Assembly (NCBI RefSeq): GCF_000151665.1
Contig: NW_013171827.1
Coordinates: 144,001-208,000 of the forward strand
Source of the DNA: Blastocystis hominis
Taxonomy: Eukaryota; Sar; Bigyra; Opalinata; Blastocystidae
Length of the DNA: 64,000 bases
Direction of reading: 5' to 3'
Shown here: piece after piece, positions 32,231 to 62,480 of the stretch
How the letters are laid out: every line of letters begins with the position of its first letter
Position numbering within the stretch: the first letter of the stretch is position 1
The notes under the pieces: generated by a model
Told to the model about the DNA's origin: nothing
Databases searched by the model: none
Seen by the model: only the letters and a program-made list of their open reading frames with translations
Translations under genes and position numbers: made by a program

Positions 32231-32498
32231 AGTATATAAAAAAGATATATTTAGTAATTGTGTATTGCGCGAAAACTTTTGGCCGCCTTTTTCGCCCCAA
32301 AATTGCCACTTTACCCGTCAGCCTGGTCGGTCATGCTAAACCGCCTCTCTGCCCCTCGCTTCCATAAATCCGAGTCACCCCTAACGCCTCACGTCGACAG
32401 GGATCATAGTTTTGCGCAAAACCACGCCAGTTACCAACTACTATGGTAAATAGAGTAAGCCATTCACTACTCCATGTTCATCCAAGGCTTATCTAGTA

Positions 32499-33560
32499 AT
32501 GGCACGTTCAAATGGATCAACCCCGTACAAATATCGGAACCCCTACATCACTTCCATGATTGCCTTGGTCAGATCAAACCCTGTCATGTTCAACAATGTG
32601 GATTCTATGAATGTGGTCACCAACTCGAATGACAAGGAGCTAACGATTCCTCCTGGATACTACACGATCGGTCAAATCATTGCCATCCTCAACATCATGA
32701 TCGATACTATGTTCTCGATATCTACGAAGGCTTCGAGTTATATGTGTATTTATATCCAGTCCACAAACACCATTGACTTCACCAATGCTCCGGATATTCG
32801 AGAATTTTTCAGTTTGGAAGGACGAACGGTCATTCTACACACTTCGTTCTATGGATCGAACGTGATTGATATCACGCGAAATCGACAAGTGATCCAAGTC
32901 TACTCGTCTTTCGTGTATTCCTCCGATCTGAAGATTGCCAACCAGAACAACAATCTGCTCACCACAATGATCATTGATGATCCCGAGGTTAATTACCTCC
33001 GCACCGTGGAAGACATCTGCATTCCGATGATAACCCGATTCGACCGATTGATGTTCCTGTTCCTCGATATGGATGGTAATATCATGCGATTGAACGGCGA
33101 ATTCGAACTCCAATTGACGATCGAAGATGTGTTTGATCAAGTGTCTTCCTCAATTCTACCGATGAACCAGTTCAGTGTGATTGAAGTATTTGGACATAAT
33201 AGAGCAAGAAGGAGATGAAATTGGATAATCCTCTATCATTCGATAAGTGTTACATATCACTTGTATCATTCTGTACCGATTTCACATTCCATAATGTACC
33301 ATCTGATCAAGTAGTTGTGATTAATGGAGATAGAACAGATGAAATTGTAATATCGATTTCATGAGGTACATATGATATCGAAACGATCATCACAATGTTG
33401 AATGCGAGTGATGCTCTATTTGAAATAGTGTATAGTGGGGAAAATGCATTTCGAGTCTATAACCAGTTTGTGATTCTTTCTCTGACACAACTTATTCATT
33501 CCTTGAATAAAGTGATTCATTTATCGAGGTGTGTGGGGAGCATGAATGAGATCAAGGAAC
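32499..33560 (+). pseudogene. Polinton structural (minor-capsid-like) protein, broken
   Basis: The first 239 codons are open and carry the motif IPPGYYTIGQIIAILN followed by a beta-rich segment and IDFTNAPDIREFF. This pattern (Pro-Gly-Tyr-Tyr-Thr, then Leu-Gly) recurs in Polinton and adenovirus-related minor capsid or penton-like proteins; the assignment is tentative. Compared with the copy at 48,189, the frame shifts near 33,212 and then meets a TGA at 33,362-33,364. A second, weaker copy of the motif (GTYDIETIITMLN) lies in the C-terminal half, suggesting two similar jelly-roll-like units. Closest relatives here are the copies at 48,189 and 59,317. Confidence 0.55.
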
Positions 33561-33595
33561 TATGGAAACCAGCAAAATGAAGAGGTGCAACTCGA

Positions 33596-34624
33596 ATGAT
33601 CATTATTGGGTTCAAACGAAACATATACTTCATCGATCTTATCGATTTCTCTTCCAAACAACACAAATCGATACAGGAAGTGTTAGGAAGACAAAAGAGT
33701 ACAGGATTCTACAAGAATCGTGGATACAAATATGTCCTTGTATGTATTGATGGATATTCGAAATACCTGATGACTCGGAAACTGAAGAGCCAGAGTGCTA
33801 CAGAAGTCACTCATGCGATGAAGGATATCCTTCAGACATATGGTGAATCACCAAAGCATATTTGCTCGGATCGAGGTACCGAGTTCACCAGTGCCATCTT
33901 TCGTACCAACATCTTGGACAAGTATGATATCACCATGTATCACATGGATTCAGCGAATAGGGCAGTACTAGCCGAACGAGTAATTCGAGATATCAAGGAA
34001 CACATCATGGTTCCTTCATTCCATTCAATCAATCAATGGAAAGGTGTATGGTTCGACTTGATCGATGGTACAGTTCGTAGACACAATGGAAGGAAGAACA
34101 GAGACATCGGATATACACCCAATGACATTTGGCTTAACAACAACAACAACGATATCTTGTACATGGAGAAAACAGAACCATCCAACATGACAGTAAAGGA
34201 CACAACACCTCAATTCGATGTTGGTGATTATGTTTGAGTGGCACGAAGACCTCGCATTCTGGAAAAGCGATCATTGACGATCAAATGGTCTCAGGACTTG
34301 GTTGAAGTTGTTGACATTGACGATCACATCATGCCATTGATGTACGAAGTGAAGAATGTGGAAAGCGATAGCACACAGAAGTGTTATGATTGGGAACTGC
34401 TGGCAAGCAAATGCAAACCACAACCAGCACCGCCTGTCACTCGATCCAAGAGTGGTAAGGAAACCCAATGCATTGAGAGAGGCAGCAAGATCACATCGAC
34501 CCATTACGAGGAGCCAGAAGAAGAAACAACAACCTGGCCCAAGTGTTCGAAAACGATTGTGATGCTCTTCACACCTACCAGACATACAAGAGAAGGGATA
34601 TTTGTGAATAAAGAGATCATATGA
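33596..34624 (+). pseudogene. Retroviral-type (DDE) integrase of element A
   Basis: The catalytic core is intact: VLVCIDGYSKYLM (first Asp), ICSDRGTEFTS (second Asp) and VLAERVIRDIKEH (Glu), with 34 residues between second Asp and Glu, the D,D-35-E spacing. The C-terminal DNA-binding part begins GDYV and is then cut by TGA at 34,235-34,237, where related integrases have Arg. The frame then continues VARRPRILEKRSLTIKWSQDLVEVV to about 34,624. Upstream, TGA 33,578-33,580 breaks the N-terminal region. It would join element ends to target DNA. One stop codon separates core from tail, so function is unlikely without readthrough. Confidence 0.85.
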
Positions 34625-35150
34625 CTCTCACTTGTCCATTCTATTCCATTTATCAGTTTGGTATGGGAAAGGGTCACAAGATTGTTGAGTGTATCGATGA
34701 ATGGCATATCGAGCAATCACACACCATCCATTGAAACATTCACCTTGTATCCCTTATCCACAACCGATTCGATGGAATCACAATGTTTGAATAGGGCATC
34801 ATTCTCATTGTAACATGGAATCGATGCGATTATGAGATATAAAGCAGAAGATAATTGGAATTGGCATTGATTATTGAATGGTTGAGTAAATGCGTGTGTA
34901 TATTCAAACATTATGGCATTATTGACTTTCACAAAACACCCAGAATGTATCGTTCATGAATATTGAGGAACGCCATCCACTGTCTCACGAATGAGGACAT
35001 GTTTGCCGTCGTTTTCGGGCATATTGATGAGCATGTTATCGAGCTTCTTGAACGTGTAATTGTTTCCATTGCTACTGAAGATGTATGACATTGATTCATT
35101 CAATTTACTTTTGTTGATTTCGTTCATAGGGTTTGACATACACACCCTTG
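34520..35150 (-). pseudogene. Polinton minus-strand ORF, conserved in elements A and C
   Basis: Begins MSNPMNEINKSKLNESMSY and includes NYTFKKLDN, INMPENDGKHVL, ETVDGVPQYS and a beta-rich C-terminal half (QCQFQLSSALYLIIASIPCYNE). The same protein, differing at scattered residues, is at 60,560-61,140. In A it is broken by a frame change near 34,950; in C that part is open. Both copies share a TGA before LLDMPFIDTL. It is encoded opposite to the integrase and polymerase. The beta-rich composition fits a structural role, but I recognise no family. Confidence 0.55.
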
Positions 35151-35610
35151 AGACATGCGCTATCATCGATGAACAAATCAGACAACTCGGGAGGAGGTTT
35201 ATCATTCACGACCTTATAGACCACGCGAACATAGTAGTTCGAGAAGAAATAGATGGCACGATTCTTGGTCATTACGCCGATAATATGAGGAGGCAGTAAA
35301 ACATTCCTAAAAAACACATTCAGAGGTACACCGAGCAGACCATTGGATTCCAATTGAGGCAATAGATACTCCCATTCATCCTCGGTAAACATGGGCGGAC
35401 GAGTTTCATCCAGAGTCATCTCGATGCAATCATAGTCGTGCAGGATCAAACCACAGTTCACATTTGCTTGCGGGGTGCGAACACTGAATCCGAATAGTCG
35501 CTCGGAATTGGCCGGATACTTGGTATGGATGATGATATCGGCGAGTTCGATATTCTCGTCCTCCCAAGTGCGTATCAGGGAAGACCATGTGTTGTTCTCT
35601 GGTTTCTAGT
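35105..35610 (-). pseudogene. Second minus-strand ORF of element A, unassigned
   Basis: An open frame (upstream edge near 35,600) reads WEDENIELADIIIHTKYPANSERLF, then DEWEYLLPQLESNGLLGVPLN and YFFSNYYVRVVYKV. Beta-rich, about 160 residues, with no ATG at the upstream end. It precedes and slightly overlaps the other minus-strand ORF. It is not present in fragment C, which is deleted there. Could be part of a capsid gene; no motif proves this. Confidence 0.4.
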
Positions 35611-35735
35611 ATTTCAATTAATCAAAGCGTGAACTCGGGTTAAAAGAGATAAATAGATATACATAAATAGAAAAATTAATACACACAATCACGCATTGAA
35701 CCCCAATTCGGGACGAGAAATTCAAACAACGGAGT

Positions 35736-36101
35736 TTGCTTCTGGAACCTAATAAAGCATGGATTCAAGTACAGAGAGGAACTGAATCGCTTGTACGACA
35801 CACCATTACCACTGAATACGACGAAGTACGTTCCCAAATCAAGAATGCTTTCTCCAGGCAATTGTTCATGATTATAGGACTTTCAGTATACTACGAGTTA
35901 CTCCGTGACAATTATAGACCACGAGGCGGCAAGTGGGTGAAGATGAGCAAAGAAGAAGCCAAAGCGTACGATAGTGACACGGATATCAAGAAGATATTCG
36001 TGGACGACCAGGACGATGATTCGGACAACTCATCGTCCTACCCGGACGACATCGCTGAATTCGAGTACGACGAATATAGACATGCGATATTCCCATTCTA
36101 G
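35736..36101 (+). CDS. Small ORF of element A, unassigned
   Basis: An uninterrupted frame of about 120 codons with a helical N-terminal half (SRQLFMIIGLSVYYELL) and an acidic tail (DDQDDDSDNSSSYPDD). It is transcribed with the polymerase and lies just upstream of it. No family recognised. Integrity in an otherwise decayed element is notable but may be chance. Confidence 0.4.
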   Translation: MLLEPNKAWIQVQRGTESLVRHTITTEYDEVRSQIKNAFSRQLFMIIGLSVYYELLRDNYRPRGGKWVKMSKEEAKAYDSDTDIKKIFVDDQDDDSDNSSSYPDDIAEFEYDEYRHAIFPF

Positions 36102-36179
36102 GTCGGACATTCCAATAACCATTTTTTTAGTCACACTTTTTTTCACTTTGGGTTGAATGTATTTTATGCCTATATATAA

Positions 36180-38572
36180 ATGGATACTCATCACGAAGAA
36201 TATACTATCAACCCTGAGACTGGACGTAAGGCCAAGATTGGCGCTCAAACCTGGAAACGATTGGCAGCCAAGTACTACATGATTTATGGAAGTTCACAGA
36301 CCATCTATTTTCTAATTCACGAGCGTGTGTGTTAAACAAGGTGTGGGATGAGAATACGAGGTCAATGAAGGTATCAAAGAAACCAAAACTTGTAACTCCT
36401 CGGAAACGAGTTGGTGATGCCAAAAAAGAGCGTAAGTATCTGATTGTGGGAAGCAAGGCATAGAACGAGCGATATCTCGAATATGAGTGGAATGGACATG
36501 AATTCGGTTAGAAGCGAAAACAACCGTTGCCTGAATTCATGAACACGGTCGAAAAGAGACGTCAAACACGACGAAACGTATTCTTCGCTATATTCGATCG
36601 CAAAGTCGCGGAATGACGCTTGTCGGATGTGATCGATTCCTCACTTGGATAAACAATCACGTATTATCACACCATAGATAGGAACATGTACAAGGAATGG
36701 ATGAATATGAAGTGAACCACGAAGGACTTTCGTCTCAAGAACGATGATGACAAGAGACTGTGGGTTCGATTACCAGATGAAAAGAGCGAAGAGGAAGTGG
36801 AACCAATAAACTTGATGATGGATAAGACGGGTGAGTTCAATGAGGTAGCGAAGAAGTACATCATCAGTGGCATGCGCGAGTGCAACCAGCGTTTCATCAT
36901 TATCATGACATACAACCTCATGTGGACACATGCCGGGGAACTCAAGATTTTCAATCTCAGCGGTGATCGATTGGGACACCTTCGCATCATTCACTAAAAT
37001 TGCATCGACGAGTGGTTGGAAGATTATCTGAAATGGTACAGAAATGTCGTGGAGGAACAAGAGACGGAAGGAAGTGGTTTTTATTTATACTCTAGTTGGA
37101 TCGGTTTCCATGTCGAGATGTTCCCACTTCGCTCATTTGTAGGTTACAAACACCACACACCTTTGATCCTTGGACTCATGGTGACTAATCCCAATATCGA
37201 TGACAACTGATGCTTGCAACGGTGTCTCATCCTGGCAAGTGAAGGCGGACACAAGATAATTGCAAATCGTAAGATGGGTGATGCAAGCGTGTACAACAAG
37301 TGGTGGAAACAACCCGACAAGTATAAGGTATTCGGGGTCACCATTCATGAGGTGGAGGAAGCAATGGGCATTTGTGATAACAAGGTATTCGATCAAAGTG
37401 AAGAGAAATTCGCGAGATTGGCAAAATTGTTGAAAGTCTCTCTCAATGTCTTCGAAATCACTCTGTTGCCTGGATATGATGACTACTCCAAGGACAAGTT
37501 CATTCTCTTCACTTGTTCTTAAGTGTACAATAGAGGAAGGGAAAGGAGGTGTTTTCTCCCTCTGCATCCTAGACGATCAGAATCTCCTTCAGCCTACACC
37601 CATACACTTCTTGTACACCAAGGACTTGAGCGATTTCAAACATCGCATCTTTCGTCAGAGTGATGCAAAGAATTCTAATCTCGCAAGAAACGTGAAGCGC
37701 AAGTTCTGTGACTTCCTTGGATCACATAGAGCTGCCCAAAATTATGAAGTGCAGGCAAATAACGAACAGATGGATGATCGTGATCAATACGAGTTGTCGA
37801 GTGAAGATACACGTCCTCAATTCGAAATGTCAGCACCTGTCGTCGTGTATGCTGACTTCGAGTTATCCATTGATGACAAGAACAAGCACAAACCCATCAT
37901 GCTGTCTTGCTTGGTCGTGTCACGCATTCCAGCCATCCAGACTCAACTGCAGTTCTTCCACGCACCACAGGAGGAAGAGAGCGACCTTCGTCCTTTCATA
38001 AAATACTTGATTCGATTGCAAGTGAGTGTAAAGAAGTACCTCTTCGATGAATTACCCCTCGAGAACACTCCCGAAATCAAGAGAGATTATCAGTCTACGT
38101 CTGTGTGTCCATTTTGTTGCAAGAAACTCGAGGACGACAAGGTGAAACATCATGCACATGTGGCAGGGAGTATTCGAATGGCGTCGAGACCCGTTTCTAC
38201 GAGGCTGGGCAGTTTATCGGCACCTGTTGTACCAAGTGCAATCTACAACTCTCATTCAACAAGAAGAACTATCGTTTGCCCGTGTACTTCCACAATGGAT
38301 CGCACTACGATTTCACATTCATCATGAAGCTCATCGCGACGATGCCTGGCGGGAATCTCGAAGTCATTCCAACCACCGAGGACAAGGAGATGCAGATTGA
38401 GTACAATGGCATTCAATTCAAGGACTCGTTGAAACTCATCAGCAGTCCTCTCAGATCGATCGTTGCACAGACACTCGGAGGGAACTTGGACATCTACGTG
38501 CACACCAAAACTCAACTCAGGAAGTATTACGAGTCGCGGAGCAAGCAATGGAGTGACCTCTCTTTACCATAG
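36180..38572 (+). pseudogene. Protein-primed family B DNA polymerase, N-terminal half
   Basis: Starts MDTHHEEYTINPETGRKAKIG, a short NPxTGRxIKxG motif also seen in large-DNA-virus and Polinton proteins. After several stops comes a region with DKFILF, then exonuclease motif I VVYADFELS (near 37,845), a Cys insert (CPFCCKKL ... GTCCTKCNLQL) and exonuclease motif II FHNGSHYDFTFI (near 38,290). The Cys insert within the exonuclease region is typical of Maverick/Polinton polymerases. The gene is cut at 38,572, directly before the element terminus, so palm motifs A, B and C are missing. In-frame TGA and frame changes (for example 37,208 and 37,520) mark it as dead. Confidence 0.8.
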
Positions 38573-38655
38573 ATAGTGGGGGTGAGCAAAATAAGCCAAG
38601 GTTAACATTTTCGCGCAATTTACGTCAATGCATAACTACTCAATATTTAAATATA

Positions 38656-38940
38656 TAAATATAATTCTAATGGGAATAAGTCAGTAGACAGAGAATGAGT
38701 ATGAAAAGGTAAAATTGTTTTGAAAGTGAGAGTATAGCGAATTGGAGGATGAATGGACCCTAATTTGTCAGTATGAAATCCATGTTGCGATATATGATAT
38801 ATTATGTCTAACTCGATGATTTCTTACTACATTTCTCGAAATGTGAATGGAATAACAAATGTGAGTGGAGGATCTTAAAGTATAATGATATTTTGGGACT
38901 TCGTATTCTATAAGTATTGGTGGATTTCTATTTCTAGAAG
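38656..38940. repeat. Palindrome left arm, inner part
   Basis: Reverse complement of about 41,041-41,425, continuing the outer left arm after the inserted element A. Between the two inner segments the right arm has 113 extra bases (41,092-41,204). Confidence 0.9.
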
Positions 38941-41040
38941 GAGAGTAATCTCCAAAAGAAGAGTACAAACTTCGTTCTATAGGCACAAATTGTTGAGTGG
39001 ATAAGGTTATGGGTGGATAGTGTTAGACTCAAAAGAAAATAGTATTTTACTTTAAAGTCTAATACTTGAAATATCACTTACAACTAAAGCATTAGTTAGT
39101 AGAAATAAAGGATCTGTCGCATGTACCAATTGTTCCTGTAATTCATACCGTTCTTTTCCAATTTGAAGATATTATGTTATATTAATGCAGTCTATTGTTC
39201 TCACTATGATACTGACATCTCTATTGGAAAAACTCTAATTTATCAATTCTCCCATGACCCTTATAATTCATGCATATTTTACTGTTTTTTATCAATATAT
39301 ATATATGTATGTATATTTTGGTATATTCTGAGGGAGTTAAGAGTAAATCAGTGAGTTCATTATTTATCGTAGTTTAGTTAATTAGAATGATGTTGTGTAT
39401 TAATTACTGATAAAGTTAATAAGCTAAGGCAATCGATCATAAACGAAGACTATATCTCAAGGATTATAAAACCGAAATTTGTTTTCGAAAGATGGCAAAC
39501 TCATACTTGGATTTCCTTTTGAGGGAAAGAAAACTAGGCACATTTTCTAATCACAGCAAATGAAACTGAATTGATTGAATGGCCAGATGAAAGGAATTAA
39601 CTTGATAGTGTAAAGCCGAACATGCATTCAAGAAAGAAATGATACGCTATTTGTCACTATACACATTGATGATAAAAAACAATAGTCTATTCGAGAAAAG
39701 CGAATTATCAAGTGCTTATGACTATTAATATGTGACAAGTGATAATATGGATACAATAACAAGAGTAATTATCACTGATTCAAAAGGACATTTAAAATGG
39801 AAAATGGAAATGGGTGAAGTGCAAAGAGTAATGAATTAGAAAGAGGAAGAGTATAAAGATACAAGATTCGAAGAACTGTAATACTATAACGAAATCATAA
39901 AACACTATATATTTAACATAACTATAATTGTGTTGTATACTTTATTTAAACGATGCAAAATGAAAAATAAGAATATTGATGAAGGATAGGATTTCATTAT
40001 CATTTAAGGCAAGGCAGATAATAGACTATATATATCCATTCAAATTATACACCATCTATCTATTCAAGTATCCACACATTACAATTCGTATTACTGTTCT
40101 CGCATCAAATGATACACTACGATAAACTATTATTGATTAAGCGAATTCATCTGTTATGAAATAGGGTTTAATATCAATACAAAAGTAAAGAGTCTAATAG
40201 GTTAATGTTTTTTTAATTTTTGTTAGATCAATGCTTCATCATAATCAGCATTTACAACAAAAACAGGTGATATCATTTGAAAACTTTGATTATACCCTCT
40301 TTATCATTCTTGTAATATGTCGATTTTATTCACGCACTGATCCTGCATGTTTTCTGATTTCACATCTCGATAATGTGGCACATTCATACTCACTTAATTC
40401 GTCTTTCTTTACCTATTAGTCTTATGTCCTTTTCATTCCATTCTACTCCACTCCACTCCACTCATATTCAAAATAGCGATCATTCCACAACTGCAACCAA
40501 AAAAGATCTTCTTCGTACATATAAAGGATCTATTATTTGATATCTACACTCAACATTCCTTCAATATTTTGTGGACCTAAGTACAAATGGCATAATTCAA
40601 TCAAATAGAAGTCCTTCTTTTGTAGTATTGTATCTCCTAAATAGTCTATTATTGGAGAGAGTACCATTAACAGTTTTACTTCTAGTTACTGGATTCGATG
40701 TATAGTTCATCATCATATATTATTACTTATAATATATGATGAATTAAATAAATGCAAAATGGCTATCATTACATCAGAGCAAACTCGATTATTATTTGCC
40801 TCTCTCAAATAACTTTGAATTATTTATAATGATAACTACCATATAATAATGCTTTTTCCATAAATGAAACAAGAAACATTAGGAACGAGAGCTTATCCAT
40901 CAATAGTTTTCAGAAAAGATGAATACTACTAGAGAGAATAGTAGAGTAGTTCCAAGGAATAAAATCGTATAATTGACACAGTATATTATATGGATTATAC
41001 TGCAATTCGGCTCACCAAGCTTCATCTTTAGCATACTCAC
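38941..41040. other. Palindrome centre, AT-rich, no gene
   Basis: About 2.1 kb of very AT-rich DNA with dense stops in all frames. No conserved motif, intron pattern or protein similarity seen. No clear inverted match between its halves. Confidence 0.6.
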
Positions 41041-44000
41041 AAATATTCACCAATAATTATAGAATACGAAGTCCCAAAATAGTATTATAGTCCAAGGCAG
41101 TAAGGTATGGACGTAACAGGCGGTCAACGGCCTGCTCAAGATCTCCTGTAGGTCAATAATTTGTTTGTTTCTTTGATTGTTAAAATAATTAATTTACTCT
41201 AAGATCCTCCACTCACATTTGTTATTCCATTCACATTTCGAGAAATGTAGTAAGAAATCATCGAGTTAGACATAATATATCATATATCGCAATATGGATT
41301 TCATACTGACAAAATAGGGTCCATTTATCCTCCAATTCGCTATACTCTCACTTTCAAAACAATTTTACCTTTTCATACTCATTCTCTGTCTACTGACTTA
41401 TTCCCATTAGAATTATTATTATAGATTAATAATAGAAGTCTTAGGTATAGTAATTCCATTATCATCATAGTTCGGGTTTTTCTCAAATAGTATTTCAAAT
41501 ATATGCTTTGTGTTTTTATCTCTCTTTCCATATATATATATATATCATTTCGAATAGTCTTTAAGAATATCAAGTCAAATAGATATCTTCCCTCCCAATC
41601 CTTTTTCTGTTCTATTCTATTCTGTTCTATTCTATTATTTACATTCTATTTCAAATAGTCTATTCCAGTTATATACAAAAGGAATTAGAAAACTTTGGTT
41701 AAAAGTTTATAACCATTACTCTATTGTATATATCGTTCTCACCATCATTCATATTTACTGTTTTAGACACACTTCTACTTCGAGAAACAGTACTACTACT
41801 CGAACTGTGAATAAACTAGTATACGATAAGAATGATAGATGAATGGGCTAATTAAACATCAATTACTAACACTTCTCAACTTCAAACTACCAAATAACCT
41901 CTTTCATATACTCATAGAAATCAGAGGTATTTAGTCATTCATTTCTTCTTAGCAATATAACGGTTCTGCCAATTTCCTTTGCTATTTATGAGAACGTTTA
42001 GATATGGTAATAAACCAATCAAATAACAGTATATTTAATTAAGAGCTTTGTTAGTTTATACCACATAAATTAGTTTTCCACAGTGTTATGAAGTCTTTTC
42101 TGTGTGCTGTGCTTATTACTCAGCTGGTCTTAGCTGTTGTTGCTCAGAGTAGTGTTTTTGTTTCTTTGTGATTTTAGGTTCTGAGTGTGGTGAAGGTTTT
42201 ATGTCTGTGACTTTTACGAAACTGGAAGGTGAGGAGCGTTGTGAGGTGCGTCTTTCTGATGCTTCTGAAAAGACTGATGGACTTGTGTTGATTGAGAAGC
42301 TGACTTATGCTGCTGCTTATTGTCTGAACCCTGGATACTATTATATTAAGTGCAGAGCTCCTGCTGTGGTGAATGTGAAGTATCTGACTTTTAACAAGAA
42401 CTATGATCTTGATGCTTCCAACGTCAACAGCGTGTTCCTGAAGTTGGACTATGTGACTGAGAGCTGGACTAGTGTCCCCGACAGCCACACGAAGCCTGAC
42501 CTCGATAAGAGCAAGCCTCTTACTGGCAAGCCTGCTTACCCCACTGATCCTACCAACGAGAAGGACGATTTCCCTTGCACTGAGGATGGTTATTTGAAGT
42601 ATCTGGATAAGTGGGACTATTCCATGAAGTGCACTTCTCGTGATAAGACGTCTGCTGAGTTCAAGAAGCGTCTGGAGTACTTCCAGGATTCTTGCGAGAA
42701 GATCCATGACTGGAACACTCGTGACAAGTATGTGATGGAGTTCACTTTCTATGCTGATTGGCATCCTGATGAGTTCGAGGAGATTACGACGACCAAGCAG
42801 CGTTACTCTGGTATTCAGACTCCTGTTCCTGCTAGAACCCCTGTTCACAACAATTCGAATCTCCGTTATCTGATGCCTTCTCTGGATCCTTGTGATGAGG
42901 TTTACACTTTCGATGCTCCCGAGGTTACTCGTCGTTTGGCTGACCAGACGACTCTGAGAGAGTACATTTGCAAGCCTCAGAACTGCTCTGTGACTTGGGC
43001 TTTCGCTGTGAGTACTTCGATTGAGTACGCTATTAAGAAGCTGTACTTCGAGGAGTACGATCAGATTGTGGAGGTGGCTCTTTCTGCTCAGGAGTTGATT
43101 GATTGCGTTGGTAAGGAGCACGGAGTGACTGATACTTGCGAGGGTCTTCCTATTGCTTGGGGATTTGATTATGTGTTTGATAATGGTATTGCTTATCGTC
43201 AATTCTACAGACACACCAACTATGAGGGAGATGTTTGCAAGGAAGTTGATGACGTCAACAAGTATCACATTGCTGGATATGAGAAGCCTTCTACTTACAA
43301 CAAGTGGGGTTTGATGGAATTGGTGATGAAGGGACCTACTGCTGTGACTCTGGGTCTGGATCCTGAGTTCTTCCAGTACTACCGTAATGATCGTGAGGAG
43401 GGTCCTTATTTCGATACCGCTTATTGGAGACCTTCTGTGTATGGTGTTGTGGTGGAGTACAAGCAGTATGCTGTGGATGGTGAGCCTGAGTTTGCTGAGT
43501 GGCCTTTCTTCGCTATTGAGGCTAGACTTCGTGCTTGCGATTCGTTCGTGTTCCGTTTGCCGATTCGTGAGACTGAGGCTGATGCGAATATTGCTGGTAT
43601 TGCTGGATTCGCTATTCGTCCGATTGTGAGCGAGCTTCTTCCTACTCCTGAGCCTCCCACTGTTCCTCCCACTCCTACTCCTACTCCGACCCCTACTCCT
43701 ACTCCTACCACTACCCCGACTCCTACTCCCACTCCTACGCCTACCACTACTCCCACTCCGACCCCCACTCCGACCCCGACCCCCACTCCGACCCCCACCG
43801 CTACGCCTACCCCCACTCCTACCCCCACTCCCGAGCCTTGGTTCCCTATCTACGATCCTTTCATTCTGGGAGATAACTGCAACTATGTGACTCCTGATGT
43901 TTGCAAGCAGGAGATTATTTCTGAGACCAATGTAACCCGTCTGTATCTGGCTATTCGTGATGCTTATCCTACGAAGGCTTTGGCTCATACTCGTGTGATT

Positions 44001-44770
44001 GATCTTTCCGGAGTGGATAAGATTAATATTCAGTTGTGGATTGATTCTTTGGGCAAGCAGGTTAAGAATGAGGCTCCTATTGATCTCTACATCATGAACG
44101 ATCCTATTAAGGGTCGTACGATCAGTACTGAGCTTGCTCTGCTGCACTTGAAACTTGCGCAGTTCACTCGTCCTCGTATTCTGTACATTGGTGACGGAAC
44201 TCTGTACCGTGAAGGATTCCTGGAAGTGTTACAAGACCTGAAGACTAATGGCGGAAAAGATTGGTATTTGAATTTGGAGGAGCTCCATGTTGTGAAGAAC
44301 TACATTGCTACTTACGATTATGCGATGGATGGTCAGAAGCCTGGTTATGCCGCGAATCTTACTAGAGATATTGTTGATTTGCTGTATGAGATGTGTACTG
44401 ATGATGTTCATTTCCCTAAGCTGCGTTACATTAACCTGAACATGAACGGATACAACTTGGTGGGAGCTGCTACTTTCGCTGAGGAGTTGATCAATGCTTG
44501 CCCTGAAACTGGTGTGACCATTGAGGCTGCTGAGGTTTTGGTGAAGTATCCTGTGTTCTGCGTGGATGACAGCGCTTTCCAGTCTCAGACGATGACCAGA
44601 ACTTACTACTACGATATGAATGATGTGAAGGATGCTGCTCAGTGCCGTTTCAACTGGAATTGGGAGGTGACTGGTTCCTTCAACAATGATATCACTGGAC
44701 CTTATCCTCTGCCTTCTACTCCTAACTGCCCTGGATATGAAACTCCTACTACGATTGGACCTTCTTCTCC
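41041..44770. repeat. Palindrome right arm with empty target site
   Basis: Carries the second pseudopeptidase gene and its upstream flank. At about 41,418-41,452 it keeps roughly 35 bp (reads AGATTAATAATAG...) where the left arm has 6.4 kb of element A. This is therefore the uninterrupted state of the same locus. Confidence 0.92.
41092..41204. other. 113-bp insertion in right arm resembling a gene 3' end
   Basis: Absent from the left arm. It is GC-richer than its surroundings, and reading plus it has a short open stretch ending TAA followed by T and TTGTTTGTTTC, like a host transcript terminus. The source gene is not in this window. Confidence 0.5.
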
Positions 44771-44780
44771 TACTCCTTAA
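42088..44780 (+). CDS. Secreted papain-fold pseudopeptidase, right palindrome copy
   Basis: Same architecture as the left copy: signal peptide, 29-nt intron at 42,149-42,177, N-domain, I29-like propeptide, C1A fold with CSVTWAF, Pro-Thr repeat (43,660-43,835, shorter than in the left copy and with Thr-Thr and Ala interruptions) and leucine-rich C-domain. The active-site Cys, His and Asn are replaced exactly as in the left copy, so the loss predates the duplication. It ends ...GYETPTTIGPSSPTP with encoded TAA and TGTTTGTT 11 bases later; this is the complete 3' end that the left copy lacks. Likely secreted; possible roles are binding substrate or inhibitors, or adhesion. That part is inference. 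Confidence 0.87.
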
Positions 44781-47876: not shown

Positions 47877-48130
47877 TTACAGAATGGCCGATAGTAGTAT
47901 GGAAATTACGTCTAATACGCAAAAAACCGTGGTGGCCAAAATCGAAAAAAACAGCCAAAATTGACCAATATTGACCACGGATGTTTAATTTGCGTCTTTC
48001 GCGTCACCCGGTCCTTCTCTGTTTGCCCTGCTCTCTATGGTAAAGAGAAGCAAGTTGTGTACTACTTCATGATCATCCGAGGTTTATTTAGAATTGACAC
48101 GTTCTCTTGGATTATTAATACAAGTTTTGG
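47877..48130 (+). repeat. Left terminus of Polinton fragment B
   Basis: Matches the reverse complement of 62,165-62,480. The best-kept block is GGATGTNNANTTTGCGTCTTTC and CGCGTCAC (48,977-scale numbering aside, around 47,980-48,008). GGAAAT-ACGT-TAA-ACGCAAAAA lies near the outer edge. The inner part runs into the start of the structural gene (TGGAACCCCTACATC). Confidence 0.8.
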
Positions 48131-48188
48131 AACCCCTACATCACTTCCATGACTGTCCTCTTCAGAACCAATCAAGTGATGTTCAACA

Positions 48189-49256
48189 ATGGATTCTATC
48201 AATGTGGTCACCAACTCGAATGACGAAGAGCTAATGATTTTTCATGGATACTACACGATCGGTCAAATCATTGCTATCCTCAACATCATGACCGATACTA
48301 CGTTCTCGATATCTACGAAGGCTTCGAGTTATGGATGTATTTATATCCAGTCCTCACACATCATCGATTTCACCAATGCTCCGGATATTCGAGAAATCCT
48401 CGGTTTGGAAGGGCGAATGGTTATTCTATCCGCTTCGTTCTATGGATCGAACGTGATTGATATCACGCGAAATCGCCAAGTGATCCAAGTGTATTCGTCC
48501 CTCGTGCGTTCATCGGACCTGAAGATTGCCAACCAGAACAACAATCTGCTCACCACAATGAATATTAACGATTCTGAGGTTAATTATCTCCGCACCGTGG
48601 AGGACATCTGCATTCCGATGATAACCCGATTCGATCGATTGATGTTCGTGCTCCTCGATATGGATGGTAATATCATGCGATTGAACGGCGAATTCGAACT
48701 CCAATTGACGATAGAAGATGTGTTTAATCAAGTGCCTTCCTCAATTCTACCGATGAACCAGTTGAGTATGATGGAAGTGTTCGGTAATACTACGAAGAAG
48801 GAAGTGAAGCTGGACAATCCTCTATCATTCGATCACTGTTCCATCTCGTCTGTGTCACTCTATACCGATTTCGTGTTGCACAACGTCCCAACCAATCAAG
48901 TGATATTAATCGATGCGGGGACATACCCACACGAGGTGTTAATACCCAGAGGAGCCTACGACATCACGAATGGCATGAGTGGGATCCGGGTCTACAGTAG
49001 TATCAATGCTCAAACATTCGGTCTGAAGAGTCCGCTGATCGATAACCTGATTCATGTATCGATGGGACTGAACAACATGATCACCTGGGACAACCTATCG
49101 ATCGATGTGATTGAACAATCGAACTTGGACTACATTGATTGGGTGCTGACAGATGCGAATGACAATCCGATCTCCTTGAATTCGAATGTGTACATCTCAT
49201 TCACGATATCTTGTAAGCACAACTTCAGTAAGGTATTCAAGAAGATAGATAGATAG
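48189..49256 (+). CDS. Polinton structural (minor-capsid-like) protein, best-kept copy
   Basis: A single frame of 355 codons without stops. It has the Gly-Tyr-Tyr-Thr-Ile...ILN motif near the N-terminus, IDFTNAPDIREILGLEG, and a second unit around IPRGAYDITNGMSGIRVYSS. The C-terminal half is complete here and shows what elements A and C have lost. The extreme N-terminus is damaged: relative to A, two bases are missing at about 48,195 (AACAATGGATTC against AACAATGTGGATTC), so the upstream codons found in A are out of frame. Assignment to the penton/minor-capsid class rests on the motif pattern and context and is tentative. Confidence 0.6.
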   Translation: MDSINVVTNSNDEELMIFHGYYTIGQIIAILNIMTDTTFSISTKASSYGCIYIQSSHIIDFTNAPDIREILGLEGRMVILSASFYGSNVIDITRNRQVIQVYSSLVRSSDLKIANQNNNLLTTMNINDSEVNYLRTVEDICIPMITRFDRLMFVLLDMDGNIMRLNGEFELQLTIEDVFNQVPSSILPMNQLSMMEVFGNTTKKEVKLDNPLSFDHCSISSVSLYTDFVLHNVPTNQVILIDAGTYPHEVLIPRGAYDITNGMSGIRVYSSINAQTFGLKSPLIDNLIHVSMGLNNMITWDNLSIDVIEQSNLDYIDWVLTDANDNPISLNSNVYISFTISCKHNFSKVFKKIDR

Positions 49257-53337: not shown

Positions 53338-54211
53338 ATGAGAATCGAAAATGTGTTTAGGAAGGAAGGAAGGAAAATGTAGATTTAGAGTGTGTAGGGT
53401 GTTGGAATGATTTAGAAACATGAACAAAATAATCCAGAACGAGGAACCAAACGACTCTAGTTGATAGGAATAATAGAGTGCTGTGAGTTGATAGTTGAAA
53501 CAAAGAAAGAAAGATAGAAAGAAAGTGCATTTAGAGTTAGTTGGTTGGTTTAGGATAAGGAAATGATAGAAAATGGAGTGAATGGTTAACGATGTGCGAA
53601 GATAGGTTCTTTGTGTGAAAATCACTGGATCAAAACCAATTTCCATTCCATTCCATTCGATTTGATTTGATTTACTAGTTTTACTAGTTTGAATTGCTTT
53701 CAAACCCAACCAGTCCCAAGTCAAAATGATTTGGCTAGAATCATGGATGGATAGATTGGATTATCGAAATAATAATAATAATAATGATAATATAGACTAT
53801 TTAGACAAAGTGGAGTGAGCAACCAAATCCTTGCTTCATAACACGATTTCACTATGATATCATAAATATACAACCTATACAGACATAGTAGACAACAAAA
53901 TGGACTTTTCCATTCTGAGTGTTTCCAAACAATCCTGATATTATAAATATTATAAATATCTATACCTCCGAACTATTTCAACCACAAAAATGTGAACAAA
54001 ATGATGCGAAACACAAGTGAGTACTTCACTTGGAAATCTTGGATCCAATGTGTATATGGTAGCACTCTATCATAATTTTTAAATATGAAGAATACTTAGG
54101 TGTAAGGAAACAAACTGATCTCTCTGTTTTCTTCATAAATTCTTTATATTTGGCTACAAATTACGGATTCAAAGAGTAGAGGCTAAGGATATGTGATTAT
54201 AAATAGGTAGA
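53338..54211. other. Intergenic AT-rich region
   Basis: Holds (AATG)n/(GATG)-like short repeats and ATTCCATTCCATTC near 53,645. No gene seen. Promoter of the MORN-LRR gene presumably lies at the right end. Confidence 0.5.
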
Positions 54212-54979
54212 ATGGAAGAACTTAAGGGAAGCGAATTTCTCCTGAACGGTTACATAACGCTTGGTGAAGCAAAGGAAATCACTATTGGAGGCTGCAAGTA
54301 TAGCCTCCAATATTATCAAGGCGATCACGAGGCTGAATACACATTGACGAAAGCTGGGAAGGTTTGCCTATTCCAAAATGGCATACTGAAGATGTGCTTT
54401 GAGGTGGATGCGAACGGGAGCGAAATCGGTGACTTCACGCGATTCGAGAACGGATGTGTCGCATTTGTGCAGTCCTATGATGAAATCTGGGACAGAAAGA
54501 ATTTTCATCGTATTATAAACCATGTCCGAGGCGAGCGTATGGAAATCTATTCGCATGCGAGTGATCACCTGATTTATCACGGTGAGTTCAATGAGAAGCG
54601 AGAACGAGAAGGATGGGGCATCCAATATGACAAAAAAACGGGTGCCATGCTGCTCGAGGGGATGTGGAAGGGTAACAAGCTGGTGGAAATCATCCGCAAG
54701 ATCGAAGGAAACATCATGATTGAGTTCAAGCGAAACGGGAATAACACCATCGCTTCGAATCGAATTCCCCTGTATGTGGGCGAATTCGTGTATGATGAAT
54801 CGAAAGAATCGTTTCTTCGAAATGGTCGAGGATACTGGATCGATGAAGAAACTCGGATTGCTACTCGCGAAGTGGAATGGAAAGATGGAGTGGAAGTGAG
54901 TGGAAGAGATCTCTATGATGGATGGTACACTCGATCCACAACTCCAAAACCCAAACCCAAACCCGCTCCGATGCCTGTG

Positions 54980-55023
<44 letters not shown>

Positions 55024-57007
55024 AAAACGCGAAGAACCTGCTCCTCTTCGATTCAGCGTCATTGGATCTACAAAATGGACCGATGTGAGTTTGCAAGTGA
55101 CCGATTTGACGATTTCATCGAATTGCTGTAACGATTTGAATGCATTGGATCTGAATCGATTCGAGTGGCTACGATCTATCGAAATCGGCGATGAATGTTT
55201 TGGATCAGTGCAAACATTCAAAATCGATGGACTGAATCGATTGAAAACGATCAAAATCGGAAACAATTCATTTACCCAGATTAAACAAGCCGAGTGGTAT
55301 ATGATTAGATATTCTTCCAAAGCTGTTCAAAGATGTAGCAATTCAAAATCATTCCACATATTGAATTGTGAATCATTGGAATCCATTCAAATTGGTGAAT
55401 ATAGTTTCATTGATTTTGCTGGCGACTTTGAATTGAAGAATCTGCCACAATTACAATCCATTCAAATTGGGACAATTGAAAGTGAGTCATACAATTTCTA
55501 TTGTAGTTCATTTGTGATTGGAGGTATTGACATGATATTGAATATTTGAATGATGCATAGATCTTCCCAATCTACAATCTATTACATTAGGTGAATATGC
55601 ATTTCGTGAATCCTTATCGACGATAATCGAAAGTATTGAATGAATTTAAATGAAATGATTGATGTAGATCTTCCATCATTACAATCCATTCAACTCGGTG
55701 AATGGGCACTTGAAGGAAAATGGGGTGATGAATCATGTTCATTGACACTTCGAAGTAAAAATGAATTGATTGGTTATGATTTGTTTTGTAGATCTTCCAA
55801 ATCTAACATCAATAACTTCTGTAAAATGGAGTTTCAATGAACCTCGTGTAGTGACATTGGAAAGTATTTTTGAATATTGAATATTGATAGTATTTAGATA
55901 TTCCAATTCTTCGAAATGTCAAGCTACCTGGTTCATTCGAGAAGGTTCATCATCCGATTATCAACAGTAACTATTCATATTTTCAGTCGATTTTAGATAT
56001 TTCTGAACTATTATTTCCTAAAGTCTATTACTTCGAGCTCATTCAATCAATGGATTCATCCATTACATCTATATTTCTTCCCAATTGGACTTGTAATGAT
56101 ATAGATTATACAATATTTGATTTTTCTCGATTTACATTAGTAAAATTGATCGAAATCGGCAACGATTGTTTTGGATCAGTGCAAACATTCAAAATCGATG
56201 GACTGAATCGATTGAAAACTGTCAAAATCGGAAGCAATTCATTTACTCAAGTGAAACAAGCCGAGCGGAATAAGATAAATTATTGTTATACCGAAGCTGT
56301 TCAAAGATGTAGCAATTCAAAATCATTCCACATATTGAATTGTGAATCATTGGAATCCATTCAAATTGGTGAATGGAGTTTCAGTGATTTTGTTGGCGAC
56401 TTTGAATTGAAGAATCTGCCACAATTACAATCCATTCAAATTGGGACAATTGAAAGTGAGTCATACAATTTCTTTTTTAGTTCATTTGTGATTGGAGGTA
56501 TTGATATGATATTGAATATTTGAATGATGCATAGATCTTCCCAATCTACAATCTATTACATTAGGTGATCGTGCATTCATGTATCCCTTATCGACAGTAA
56601 TTGAAAGTATTGAATGAATTCGAATGAAATGATTGATGTAGATCTTCCATCATTACAATCCATTCGACTTGGTCCATATGCAATTTATGGAAGATGGAAG
56701 AATGATTCATATTCATTGACACTTCGAAGTAAAAATGAATTGATTGGTTATGATTTGTTTTGTAGATCTTCCAAATCTAACATCAATAACTTCTGAAGGA
56801 TGTAGTTTCGTTAATCCTCGTGTAGTGACATTGGAAAGTATTTCTGAATATTGAATATTGGTAGTATTTAGATATTCCAATTCTTCGAAATGTCAAGCTA
56901 CCTGGTTCATTTGAGAAAGTTCGATCAAAATCAATTTCGAGTATAGTTTGATTGATTTGATTTGATTCATAGATGTTTCTTCCATTCTCGCTGATCTTGT
57001 CCACTAA
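54212..57007 (+). CDS. MORN-like plus leucine-rich-repeat protein, modular exons
   Basis: Residues 1-240 form a MORN-like beta region (YHGEFNEKREREGWGIQYDKK, LLEGMWKGN). A linker of Pro-Lys and Pro-Ala repeats follows (54,945-55,025). The rest is a leucine-rich array of the type LPxLQSIQIGExSF. Introns of 32-37 nt recur at the same place: each exon ends with one base of a codon and the next begins AT-CTT-CCA, giving Asn/Gly-Asp-Leu-Pro. About 940 bp of the array is duplicated internally: SVQTFKIDGLNRLKT occurs at 55,205 and 56,175, and SKSFHILNCESLESIQIG at 55,340 and 56,310. The stop at 57,005-57,007 is inferred. Probably a protein-binding scaffold. Confidence 0.65.
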
Positions 57008-59289
57008 ATCAAGCATTAAATCTATAATTTTGATTTGATTTGATTTGTTCAGTGATTCGTCATTGTTTAGGAACATTTCCATTGATTGATTGATTGATTG
57101 TTTGTTTGTTTGAAACCGATTCTTGATCACAATTCATGATTCTATAATTATCAAAATATCAATCCTGCCTGATTATTATGATGTTCTTCTTTACCATTTT
57201 AACAATGATACAGAATTATGATTGTTGTTTCAATCAATCAATCAATAAATCATGCGTTAAACAGTTCTAAAAGCATAAACAAATGAATGATTGATTGAAT
57301 GAATGATTGAATCGATGACATTATTGATGCAGAATTACAGTTCATTGGTTGTGATAAAGGTCTTTGTTGTTTTGTGAATCACTCCACAGAGAGAGAATCT
57401 TTCATTCGTTCATTCATTCATTCATTCATTCATTCATTCATTCATTCATTTGTTTTCATTTCAGTGTTGAATTGCTGAAATCGAATCGAATCCAACTCCA
57501 ATATCACAACCAATCACATTCCCATTCATTTCGATTCTCTCTCATTCACTCTTCATTATCATTATCACGTATTACATTAATAATAAATAACTAACTAATA
57601 CATATCATTGAATGGATTAAGATCTTAAGCAATGAATACTATTTCTTCTATTCTTTTCTTTTCTCCTTTCTTTCATTCATTCATGGTACAAACCATCTCC
57701 ATGCTATGCAATCTTTGTACATCCAATTCATATTCATTCAATAGATTGTAACCAATTACACAAATCATTCCAGTACTATTCTATTCACATATAGCGTACA
57801 ATCTGTGATAATATCTATGAATCATTCAGTTCCAACCACTATATACCTCTCATTGTACATTCCAACTAACAATAACGGAATTTACTACAAACTCCAATCA
57901 ATCATTCATTCATCGATTGGTTATTCCAGTACTAAGTATCAACAGTATTGTTCCTGTTACTCAGAATTAGTTATTTTATGAAAATGGATTTAACAGAATC
58001 AAACATTGTGTTAAACCAATGAAATGACAGAATTGTGTTTGTCTGGATTTTGTTTGTTATGAAGCAAAACTATGCATGATCTATGTAATTCGTATCAGGA
58101 TGTACTAAAACAGATCCCTGTGAAATATCATCATTTCAGCTATTGTTCGTCATAATTTGTGAAAATGACTTCATTTCCATTGCTACTTCATATATATGTT
58201 ATTTTCTACTATTCTATTACATTCTAGTATTGTTGTTGTTTTCATTCATATTGGCCATTTCTGATTATTCCACACTTACCTATCTTATTTTCACAGTATT
58301 CTATTCCATGGAGTATACTAATGAGCCAAAATATACAATCAATCACAAATACACATTATTCTATCTTCCCATTCAGAACAATAATGATGATGATGATGAC
58401 AAAACATCAACTATTCACAATTAATACTATTGAGAATAACTATTGTGCAGACACTTGTTTGTTAATACTGCTCATTCCTTCTCTCAGATTATAACACGAA
58501 CTAGCAACATTATTAGTGGTCACATTTAGAATGTGAATTCATTATGGGATTTGATACAATTCATATCACACAATATGCACTAAAATGAAACAATACACAA
58601 TTGTTGTTATTCTATTGCAGATATTCCTTTTCCAAGTATTGATTCAAAGTATCTCGAGACTATAGTATACAGATTAGTCATATATCAAAGGAAATACAAC
58701 AATACTTGTGGTAAATGACTGATTCATCCTTCCTATTTCTATTGATGAGTTCATCTATATTTGATACATGTCACATAACAAAAATGATCCTATTTTCACA
58801 ATAACAAAAGCTCTTTCGATCAATAATAATATGCTTTATCAACTTGAAGCCATCAATAACCTCATTAATATGGAACAATAGTAGTAAGAGAATGGCACTG
58901 TTTGCGTGAAACCTGGTGGCAGTTTTCTTTATATGCTATTTTGTTCCATGACAACAATTGCGATCCTTTGTCTATTGTTGTAATCGACCAACCGATTCTG
59001 AGTCCTCGACTATCGTTCCTAGGCTGTCTAGTCGACAATCATCGGTCAAGAACCAGGTTTCATGCTTTCTTACTCCAATTCGTTTTTACTATCAACCTAG
59101 TGCTCGTTTCTATTGTTGTGTTTGTTGCATCAGTTATACTTGAATGCAAGAAAGTAGTAGACATACCTAGCTAAGGTGAATTATTGTTATTTCTCTCGTA
59201 TTTACATGTTTGTTTGCTTATTTGTAATGACCGAAACCCAATGTGTGTACATTGTCATCACAAATCCATCTATTGTTGTCCATACAAGT
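57008..59289. other. Simple-sequence-rich AT region, no gene
   Basis: Contains (ATTG)n at 57,080-57,105 and 57,230-57,310, (CATT)n of about twelve units at 57,402-57,450, and (GATGAT)n at 58,385-58,400. Open frames such as 58,143-58,424 are AT-driven and have no intron or domain signal. Two imperfect copies of a ~70-bp stretch lie at 58,960-59,140. Confidence 0.6.
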
Positions 59290-59316
59290 CATAAGTGTCT
59301 TTGGTAAAGAGAGAAC

Positions 59317-60545
59317 ATGCATTATTCCATTCTCATACAAGATTCACCTATCAATGGTTCAATCGATTCAATCAATCCTTACAAGTTCAGAAATCCATAT
59401 ATCACTTCCATGACTGTTCTATCCTTACCCAATCAAGTCATGTTCAATAATGTGGACTCAACCAATGTGGTGACAAACACCAATGGTGAAGAGATAACGA
59501 TCTCGCCTGGTTATTATACACTGAGTGAAATCATTGCCATTCTGAACACCATAATTAATACTACATTCTCAATTTCCACAATGGATACAAGTTATGAGTG
59601 TATTTGGATCCAGTCTCCATACTCTATTGATTTCACGATTGCTTCAGATGTACTAGAGATATTTGGGTTAGGAAATCACATGATTGTATTCCCTGCTTCG
59701 TTCTATGGATCGAATGTGATTGATATCACGCGAAATTGTTAAGTGATTCAAGTGTATTCATCGTTGGTATGATCATCTGATTTGAAAACCGCTAATCAGA
59801 ACAACAATTCACTCACCACAATGATCATGGATGATTCTGAAATCAATGATATCAATACTGTAAAAGAAAAATGTATACCGATGATTCACCGATTTGATCG
59901 ATTGATGTTTGTGTTCAAGGAGATGAATGGTAATATCATACATTTGAATGGTGAATTCGAATTCCAATTGACGATTGAAGATGTGTGTGATCAATTGCAT
60001 ACTCCAGTTCCATCGACCAACCAATTCAGTATGATTGAAGTATTTGGACACAATAGAGCAAGAAGGAGATAAAATTGGATAATCCTCTATCATTCGATTA
60101 GTGTTACATATCATTTGTATCATTCTATACCGATTTCACATTCCATAATGTACCATCTGATCAAGTAGTAGTGATCAATGGAGATAGAACAGATGAAAGT
60201 GTAATATCGATTTCACGAGGTACATATGATATCAAAACAATCATCGCAATATTGAATGCGAGTGATGCTCTATTTGAAGTAGTGTATAGTGGAGAAAATG
60301 CATTTCGAGTCTATAACCAGTTTGTGATTCTTCCTCTGACACAACTTATTCATTCCTTGAATAATGCGATTCATTTGTCCATGTGTGTGTGGAGCATGAA
60401 TGAGATCAAGGAACTATGGAAACCAGCAAAACGAAGAGGTGCCACTCGAATGATCATCAGTGGGTTCAAACGAAACATATACTTCATCGATCTTATCGAT
60501 TTCTCTTCCAAACAAAACAAATCAATACAGAAAGTGTTGGGATAA
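59317..60545 (+). pseudogene. Polinton structural protein, element C copy
   Basis: Reads KFRNPYITSMTVL, SPGYYTLSEIIAILN and GSNVIDITRN before a TAA at 59,740. It then continues in the same frame and, like copy A, shifts near 60,060 (NRARRR then stop). The second unit (SRGTYDIKTIIAILN) at 60,210-60,270 is open, and CGA codons stand where copy A has TGA. The frame stops at 60,543 at the deletion junction. Confidence 0.6.
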
Positions 60546-60559
60546 CAATAGTACATCGG

Positions 60560-61140
60560 ATTCTCGTTCAAGTGTTGGAAAACGATTGTGATGCTCTTCA
60601 CACCTCCCAGACATACAAAAGAAGGGATATTCGTGAATGAAGAGATCGTATGACTCTCACTTGTCCATTCTATTCCATTTATCAGTTTGGTATGGGAAAG
60701 GGTCACAAGATTGTTGAGTGTATCGATGAATGGCATATCGAGCAATCACACACCATCCATTGAAACATTCACCTTGTATCCCTTACCCACAATCGATTCG
60801 ATGGAATCACAATGATTGAATAGGACATCATTCTCATTGTAACATGGAATCGATGTGATTATCAGATATAAAGCAGAAGATAATTGGAATTGGCATTGAT
60901 TATTGAATGGTTGAGTGGATGTATGTGTATGTTCAAACAGTTTGGCATTATTGACTTTCACAAAACACCCAGAAGGTATCGTCCATGAATATTGAGGAAC
61001 GCCATCCACTGTCTCACACACGAGGACATGTTTGCGGTCATTCTCTGGCATATTGATGATCATGTTATCGAGCTTCTTGAACGTGTAATTGTTTGGATTG
61101 CTGCTTAAGATATATGATATTTATTCATTCAATTTACTTT
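60560..61140 (-). pseudogene. Polinton minus-strand ORF, element C copy
   Basis: Counterpart of the ORF at 34,520-35,150. The segment INMPENDRKHVLVCETVDG to SMDGV is open without the break seen in A. It keeps the shared TGA before LLDMPFIDTL. N-terminal codons (61,085-61,140) contain an extra stop. Confidence 0.5.
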
Positions 61141-61179
61141 GGTTGATTTCGCTCATAGGATTTGACATATACACCCTTC

Positions 61180-62195
61180 AGACAAGCTCCATTCATATTC
61201 GAATATGTGAGCATGTTGAATGAGAAACGAGCCAAGTCCAATACCACTGTGAAGAAGAACCTGTACAAGCTGTTGGCAAATTCCACCTATAGCATATTTG
61301 TGGAGATTGGATAGAAACGAATGAAAGTGAAGTTTGCCACCAAATGGAATGAACGTGAGGTTATCATCCAAAAGCATGGATACGATATGATCACCGGAAC
61401 CAACATGTATTCCGAGAATCTGATCGGTATCAAGCTGAATACACCGATACGCAAGGTCGAAAAGCCATACTTCATCGGGTTCGCCATTCTGGACATGTCC
61501 AAACACATCATCTATGATTTCTACTACAATGTGCTCAAGAAAACATACAATAACGTGGAATTACTCGGATAGAACACAGAATCGCTCATCGTACAACTGA
61601 TCGACAAGGGCAACATCGTTCACAAGAGGTGTGAGATGGACAAGTCGTTTGATTTCTCAGAATTGGTTAACACGAGTTACTACTATGGACAAATCGTGAA
61701 CCACTACGAGCAGAAAGATGATAAGAGCAAGTTCCCTTCGCTGTCATCATTCCCAACTTCAACAAGAAACTAGCGGGACCCATTATGAAGGATGAACACA
61801 ATGGGCATCACAACACCGAGTTCGTGGGTCTAAAACCCAAAATGTACTGCCTCATGGATGAGAAGCATGTGATACACAATGCAGCAAAATAAGTTCCATG
61901 CAACGTGGTAATCGATGGTGAGAGAATGAGTGGAAAGAACATCAAGTTGTACAAGCGTGTTTTTGAGGCAGAGAGAAAGGGATATACAATCATTGATTGC
62001 TCCTTCAAACGTATCAACATCAAGGGCTTCGATATCACCACGAAGGAGCAAACCAAGACACTCATGACGGCGCATATAACAAGAGATGGATCTTGGATAA
62101 CAATGTGCATATACTCGCATTCGGATATTATCGACTATCGAGTGTTTAAAGAAGAAGTTGTTTTTTTTAACTTGGACAATCGTGGAAGGATGTAG
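61180..62195 (+). pseudogene. Protein-primed family B DNA polymerase, C-terminal half
   Basis: Motif B region reads KKNLYKLLANSTYSIF. After a TAG at 61,312 come GFAILDMSKHIIYDFYYNVLK and a TAG directly before NTESLI, where the polymerase motif C DTDS should be. MKDEHNGHHNTEFVGLKPKMY and a thumb/tip region to SHSDIIDYRV follow. Two stops and Asp-to-Asn in motif C make it non-functional. It supplies the half that element A lacks. Confidence 0.75.
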
Positions 62196-62480
62196 GGGTT
62201 CCAACACTTGTACCGGTTGATCCATTCGAACGTGCCGTTACTAGGTGAGCCTTGGAGGAGCATGGAGTAGTGTAATAGAATCTTAGATTTGCCGTGTATG
62301 GCCTTTCTCTATCATGGACAGCAGAACGAGCAGGGGAGGAGCGCGCTGACCGGGAGGACCGGGAGGACTGGAGTGACGCGAAAGACGCAAAATGGACATC
62401 CATGGTCAAAATTGGCTAACTATGAACGCTATGGATTTTTGCGTCTTAAACGTTATTTCCGTACTATTGTCGATGTTATT
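62165..62480 (-). repeat. Right inverted terminus of Polinton fragment C
   Basis: On the minus strand it shows TTTTGCGTCTTTCGCGTCAC, as in the left terminus of B. It continues inward to CGTTCGAATGGATCAACC and TGGAACCCCTACATC, an inverted piece of the structural gene start. The terminus is therefore about 300 bp and overlaps coding sequence. Confidence 0.8.

Follow-up and report, generated by a model that had tools for sequence, protein, structure and literature searches.

Relics of a Polinton-like virus family in Blastocystis hominis, with fuller copies elsewhere in the genome and double hairpins among them

The 64-kb window of the Blastocystis hominis genome analyzed here (C13:144001-208000; the genome searched amounts to 18.7 Mb in 40 contigs) contains three broken elements, A, B and C, which we assign, with a probability of about 0.93, to a Polinton-like double-stranded DNA virus family of this organism, as members that have decayed or suffered internal deletions; the fuller members of the family measure 21.5-22.8 kb. 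The gene content, the folds of the major capsid protein (MCP) and of the penton, the termini, the target duplications and the selection on the MCP were shown in the analysis. An earlier note on this window had proposed Polinton-family relics in Blastocystis, and this proposal stands, as regards both the host and the presence of an integrase and a split DNA polymerase (PolB). The word relics is right for A, B and C, which are broken, but not for the whole family, since fuller copies with a capsid gene, an ATPase-like gene and terminal repeats are present elsewhere in the genome.

A search of the genome with PF03175 found 86 matches, and by hand count 37 lie in open frames of 1,471-1,519 amino acids. 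The search with the MCP found 83, among them 67 of near full length, and 61 of those 67 carry no stop (also counted by hand). Ten fuller copies were taken around PolB; three were extended leftward, in two cases as far as the left end. From left to right the element presents a terminal inverted repeat (TIR), penton (+), orf231 (+), orf800 (+), orf332 (+), a protease-like open reading frame (ORF) (+), KilA-N (+), a packaging-ATPase-like gene (-), c14 (-; OB-like by eye), MCP (-), c6 (+), c18 (-), rve integrase (+), c7 (-), c4 (-), c8 (+), PolB (+) and a TIR. Between the ATPase piece and PolB all 10/10 copies have an identical gene order, and the left block, from the penton to KilA-N, was read in three. 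The TIR search yielded 70 matches, from the best 40 of 42 candidates, and six copies could be paired at both terminal repeats, with lengths of 21,478-22,825 bp. Four of these six are flanked by perfect 6-bp target duplications (ACAGAT, ACATTA, ATTGTA and TTCATA), the combination of TIRs and 6-bp duplication that is found in Polintons. The termini are (AGT)n with a variable n, which would fit sliding-back in protein-primed replication.

PolB is a family B DNA polymerase according to PF03175 (2.8e-16) and to its DTDS and NSTYG motifs, and gave chance rows only in the PDB. The integrase belongs to the rve type (PF00665 at 8.9e-13 in a fuller copy; PFV integrase at 7.1e-5 to 6.8e-4 in the PDB). 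The MCP is, as in Polintons, a double jelly-roll by its AlphaFold model and Foldseek; its nearest match in BFVD is 'MELD virus sp.' (70% identity, TM 0.93), and its profile found no sequence match in the PDB. The penton, with a full frame of 1059 aa, is assigned as the minor capsid protein by fold and database name only. Between copies, the mean dN/dS of the MCP is 0.128. The double jelly-roll MCP, the terminal repeats and this ratio argue together for a virus-like Polinton family under selection. A crypton or retroelement integrase, which the earlier note had named as a possible refutation, is rejected, because the rve core lies in one element with PolB, MCP and TIRs. Contamination, the other refuter it named, finds no support: two PolB relatives are labelled 'uncharacterized protein [Blastocystis hominis]', and TGTTTGTT, which we take to be the Blastocystis polyadenylation motif, ranks first in the window among its 28 letter permutations, with 31 occurrences versus a mean of 8.5, a count that speaks against a foreign origin. 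An SSU primer named beside Blastocystis in 35 papers has exactly six occurrences in the genome, and its partner primer is present in the one locus examined for it, L032.

In a virus of this kind PolB, with a protein priming at the (AGT)n termini suggested by these and by PF03175, would copy a linear genome, the integrase would insert it with a 6-bp duplication, and MCP, penton and ATPase would build particles; the family may be active at present. Several observations weigh against assigning A, B and C to such a virus family. The copies of C36 and C40, two of the six bounded ones, have no matching target duplication, and relic A has no exact one, with ATATTT abutting its left end and sitting 2 bp off its right end. 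In the three copies read, orf800 is one frame in one and two frames in two. MCP, penton and protease-like ORF gave no Pfam match above the cut-off; furthermore, the penton was modelled with mediocre confidence (pTM 0.50) and with large VIA rmsd values. The ATPase-like gene presents a Walker-A-like APSKSGKS in a 375-aa piece and weak PHROG matches only (6.1e-5 primase/helicase, 5.7e-4 terminase). The protease-like ORF, of 168 aa, has a His..Asp..Cys-Gly pattern recognized by eye, and the searches with it found a single unannotated PHROG, weak at 0.0037, and chance rows in the PDB, with no confirming family. In addition, no relatives appeared in IMG/VR or in phage records, where records near this genome may be absent.

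It could be argued that the family is in practice a transposon, that is, that its copies spread within the genome only and that the capsid genes are passengers. The presence of dozens of copies in one genome, together with numerous derivatives (at least 40) lacking the capsid block, agrees with this idea; however, the purifying selection on the MCP between copies and the proportion of near-full-length MCP matches without a stop, both given above, do not. The same can be said of the MCP relatives, since for 10 of 85 the longest contig measures 22-24.2 kb, about one element, although these could be integrated copies too. We regard this explanation as unlikely. Slightly less probable still is that the element is a virophage-like satellite of a giant virus of Blastocystis; to our knowledge, no such giant virus is known. 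Virophages rank first among the solved structures for the capsid and penton folds, and mavirus and Sputnik share these folds with our element, unlike the MCP sequence, whose identity is of about 10%. Integrated virophages of other protists behave as satellites, as described in the available parts of PMC10945749 and PMC8547959. Against a satellite speaks the PolB that the element itself encodes, which alone does not exclude dependence.

The anatomy of the relics was established by tblastn, using the intact frames of the fuller copies as queries. Relic A (32253..38640, +), internally deleted, runs from AGTAATTG.. at its left end to ..ACTACT at its right end, both placed by eye. It starts with the 5' third of the penton gene (32443..33450, +), which reaches about residue 370 of 1059 (residues 39-370 by tblastn) and matches nt 95-1103 of the intact penton DNA at 75%. 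At 33445..33450 (+), penton nt ~1103 is joined to the region upstream of the integrase, a deletion junction located by DNA match to the intact frame. The rve integrase follows (33542..34517, +; residues 5-320 of 346; PF00665 E 1.1e-12; 80% in tblastn), with in-frame stops at 33578 and 34235, and then remnants of c7 (34534..35091, -), an ORF present in 10/10 fuller copies, c4 (35117..35725, -) and c8 (35695..36098, +). The N-terminal part of PolB (36180..38557, +; residues 1-826 of an 894-aa piece) is broken into several frames, and PF03175 gave just 0.018, on one ORF piece. The flanks of the relic, 28861-32230 and 38644-38894, match 44743-41458 and 41434-41182 in the self-comparison of the window; the inverted paralogous locus around 41435-41457 corresponds to the site without relic A, with ~20-45 bp between the alignment limits left unaligned. 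This inverted duplication around relic A is formed by two near-identical large genes (28854-31523, -, and 42153-44780, +), which carry Thr-Pro repeats and look papain-like by eye; the self-comparison gives 92.5-95.9% identity.

Relic C (59221..62296, +) has both ends rearranged: its left border (59221-59301, -) is the end of PolB and its right border (62189-62296, -) the start of the penton. Between them are found penton residues 36-370 (59302..60311, +; tblastn and DNA match), the same penton-integrase junction as in A (60299-60304, by DNA match), integrase residues 5-60 (60396..60563, +), a c7 remnant (60563..61120, -), a short bit of c4 and the C-terminal part of PolB (61177..62099, +; residues 288-593 of a 609-aa piece, with 288-607 of this piece recovered by tblastn for the relic). 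This corroborates that A keeps the integrase and the N-terminal half of the polymerase and C its C-terminal half, as had been noticed from the sequence. In relic B (48021..49235, +), tblastn detected residues 27-344 of the penton and, after them, residues 130-230 of orf231, the second penton-like ORF. The structural gene that the earlier note saw in the three relics is indeed common to them and is penton-like by fold and database name; the identities in the self-comparison are 85.8% over 844 bp for A/B, 83.3% over 1136 bp for A/C and 74.9% over 764 bp for B/C. The claim that they also share their termini is only partly right, since A alone keeps recognizable terminal repeats; the ends of C are those described, no terminal repeat was found for B, and a terminal-core scan with up to 5 mismatches matched only the right end of relic A.

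The ancestral order that had been deduced from the relics (structural protein, integrase, minus-strand ORFs, polymerase) contains the integrase and PolB, but it is the order of a deletion product in which the capsid genes are missing. In the C40 copy, ~13.8 kb (arithmetic from coordinates) separates both sides of the A/C junction, a block which includes the rest of the penton, orf231, orf800, orf332, the protease-like ORF, KilA-N, the ATPase-like gene, c14, MCP, c6 and c18. A search with window positions 33050-33700 gave 251 candidates, of which the best 40 were scored and three loci (L047, L048 and L049) inspected. By their match ranges, all 40 cover the junction; 13, A and C included, span nearly the whole query, as L049 does, and the other 27 start at query position 302, the type of L047 and L048, which have a further loss inside the penton. 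The ten fuller copies match this query on the integrase side only. The same junction in A, C and all scored matches, with the fuller copies on one side of it, indicates one deletion followed by spread. Recurrent breakage at a single place would be compatible with the sequence alone, so that independent deletions could have made the junctions of A and C; this is highly improbable, given that both lie within the same few bases, that all the scored candidates cover the junction and that no penton-like repeat, which could make the deletion recur, was found upstream of the integrase in 10/10 fuller copies. The absence of this repeat also led us to reject a deletion by recombination between penton repeats. 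On this reading, A and C descend from a derivative lineage, which spread after its morphogenesis block had been lost at one junction.

At least for the C-type copies examined, which lie in a dispersed unit larger than the virus part, this spread took place inside that unit. The three inspected loci carry the PolB-end/penton-start left border of relic C and sequence of ~95% identity farther left, and relic A is without this border. The view of C-type derivatives as simple mobile non-autonomous Polintons is weakened, as all three share this further non-element sequence. The left neighbour of relic C (57303..59220, strand not applicable) is in large part ~95% identical to these three dispersed copies. 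This AT-rich unit was also observed in L012, L016 and L018, and in L016 it starts directly after the right end of the virus. A multi-copy host gene family (cluster c23) recurs near virus copies, at 54203-56520 and in the flanks of L010, L020, L022, L024, L026 and L028. At L018:2577-5753 (-), downstream of the C12 copy and in the opposite orientation, a second virus copy is present with a penton frame open over 1059 aa, which indicates that virus copies can be neighbours.

Another aspect of the fuller copies is the presence of double hairpins. In 13 loci (126,483 bp, from the ten copies, three with the extra left piece) we found 63 pairs of adjacent GC-rich hairpins. No such pair occurs in the 64-kb window, in L047-L049 or in five shuffles of each set, nor in 45,927 bp lying past the right ends, a set that takes in parts of another copy and of the dispersed unit. 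Their length is 38-43 bp in 58/63 and the form GGG..CCC GGG..CCC appears in 48/63; the loops occur in both orientations (TTC 22, GAA 22), and the 163 hairpins have 62 different stems. Examples within the fuller copies (L009-L031) are L025:8510-8547 and L021:8651-8688; nesting, one within the loop of another, was observed at L021 8651 and 2464. One hairpin pattern occurs at 70 places of the genome versus 0 for the control; of the 50 places listed, on our own reading, 49 are no more than ~13 kb away from a match to MCP or PolB, and the other one is 3.5 kb from a TIR match.

Double hairpins are present in some copies and absent from others: 22 distinct sites have a clean empty allele in another copy, and relic A has the empty allele at three hairpin sites. 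In 16 of the 22, a word of 4-6 bases is shared within 9 bases on either side (3.6 expected, maximum 9 in 2,000 shuffled pairings), although these words need not touch the hairpin. By our own assignment, 12 sites are in genes of the compared copies (integrase/c7, three in c4, two in c7, c18, c8, ATPase, two in PolB and orf332), and all 12 inserts are of 45 or 48 nt and keep the frame, versus 3/10 multiples of three at the other sites (Fisher p 0.0007); an insert length naturally of 45 or 48 would itself keep the frame, and for both frame and duplication the sites are few, the copies related and the genes assigned by hand. The idea that all hairpins are genic, suggested by stop-to-stop ORFs, was rejected, as many lie in spacers. 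Peptides encoded by hairpins were absent from 120 MCP and penton homologs with a crude pattern, and 24 PolB homologs gave one possible case (P0123), from B. hominis itself; hence, there is no evidence of the hairpins outside this genome. For a Y1 transposase of the REP/IS200 type, PF01797 gave no match in the genome at E<=0.1 and matches in 6/14 control genomes.

We tentatively propose, at somewhat less than even odds, that the virus family carries a parasite of its own, namely double-hairpin elements of ~40 bp which would multiply in viral and not in the surrounding host DNA, with a duplication of ~5 bp and with nesting, and persist in genes only in frame. They may spread during virus replication, either through the viral integrase or when the polymerase switches its template at hairpins. 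The double-hairpin elements of fungal mitochondria, as presented in the available part of PMC10085805, are likewise two adjacent GC-rich hairpins, potentially mobile, and here the 63 cases in 126 kb and the 22 presence/absence sites offer the same combination. In contrast to those, the hairpins surveyed here sit in virus copies integrated in large nuclear contigs; they are found within genes as well, some are nested, and empty alleles exist. Rickettsia palindromic elements are also palindromic DNA inserted in frame in genes, but, according to the part of PMC10969869 available, theirs are of ~150 bp with a conserved encoded peptide, and ours are of ~40 bp with variable stems.

With respect to known relatives, Polintons/Mavericks and adintoviruses (Polintoviricetes) share with the present family PolB, rve integrase, double jelly-roll MCP, penton, TIRs, the 6-bp duplication and a size of ~22 kb; the KilA-N gene, the 1059-aa penton and an MCP without Pfam match above the cut-off or PDB sequence match set it apart. 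'MELD virus sp.' (NCBI taxid 2834287, unclassified viruses), presumably from gut metagenomes, is the best BFVD match for the penton (38%) as well as for the MCP; unlike our elements, which are integrated, multi-copy and in an identified host genome, it is a taxonomy entry without host. The subtype 7 genome was reported as 18.8 Mb with 25% assigned to repeats, which were masked for most comparisons, and 'integrase', 'viral' and 'DNA polymerase' do not occur in the available main text of that 2011 paper (PMC3129679), nor does 'Blastocystis' in that of PMC10120064 (Bellas 2023). No description of Polintons in Blastocystis was found among the titles and abstracts listed in the literature searched, with subscription papers outside. 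The remark of the earlier note that it knew of no description in this group may nevertheless be too strong, because a 2026 review, in its available part, attributes virus sequences tied to Blastocystis isolates, which it calls 'RNA viruses', to Starrett et al. 2021.

Blastocystis ranks among the most common eukaryotes in the human gut. Should every near-full-length MCP stand for a near-complete copy, the elements would make up ~7-8% of its genome. The finding assigns at least one 'MELD' virus lineage to a host, and it sets a candidate DNA virus next to the old reports of virus-like particles that are cited in the available part of PMC12835684. Finally, it opens the idea of miniature mobile DNA within a virus to direct testing.

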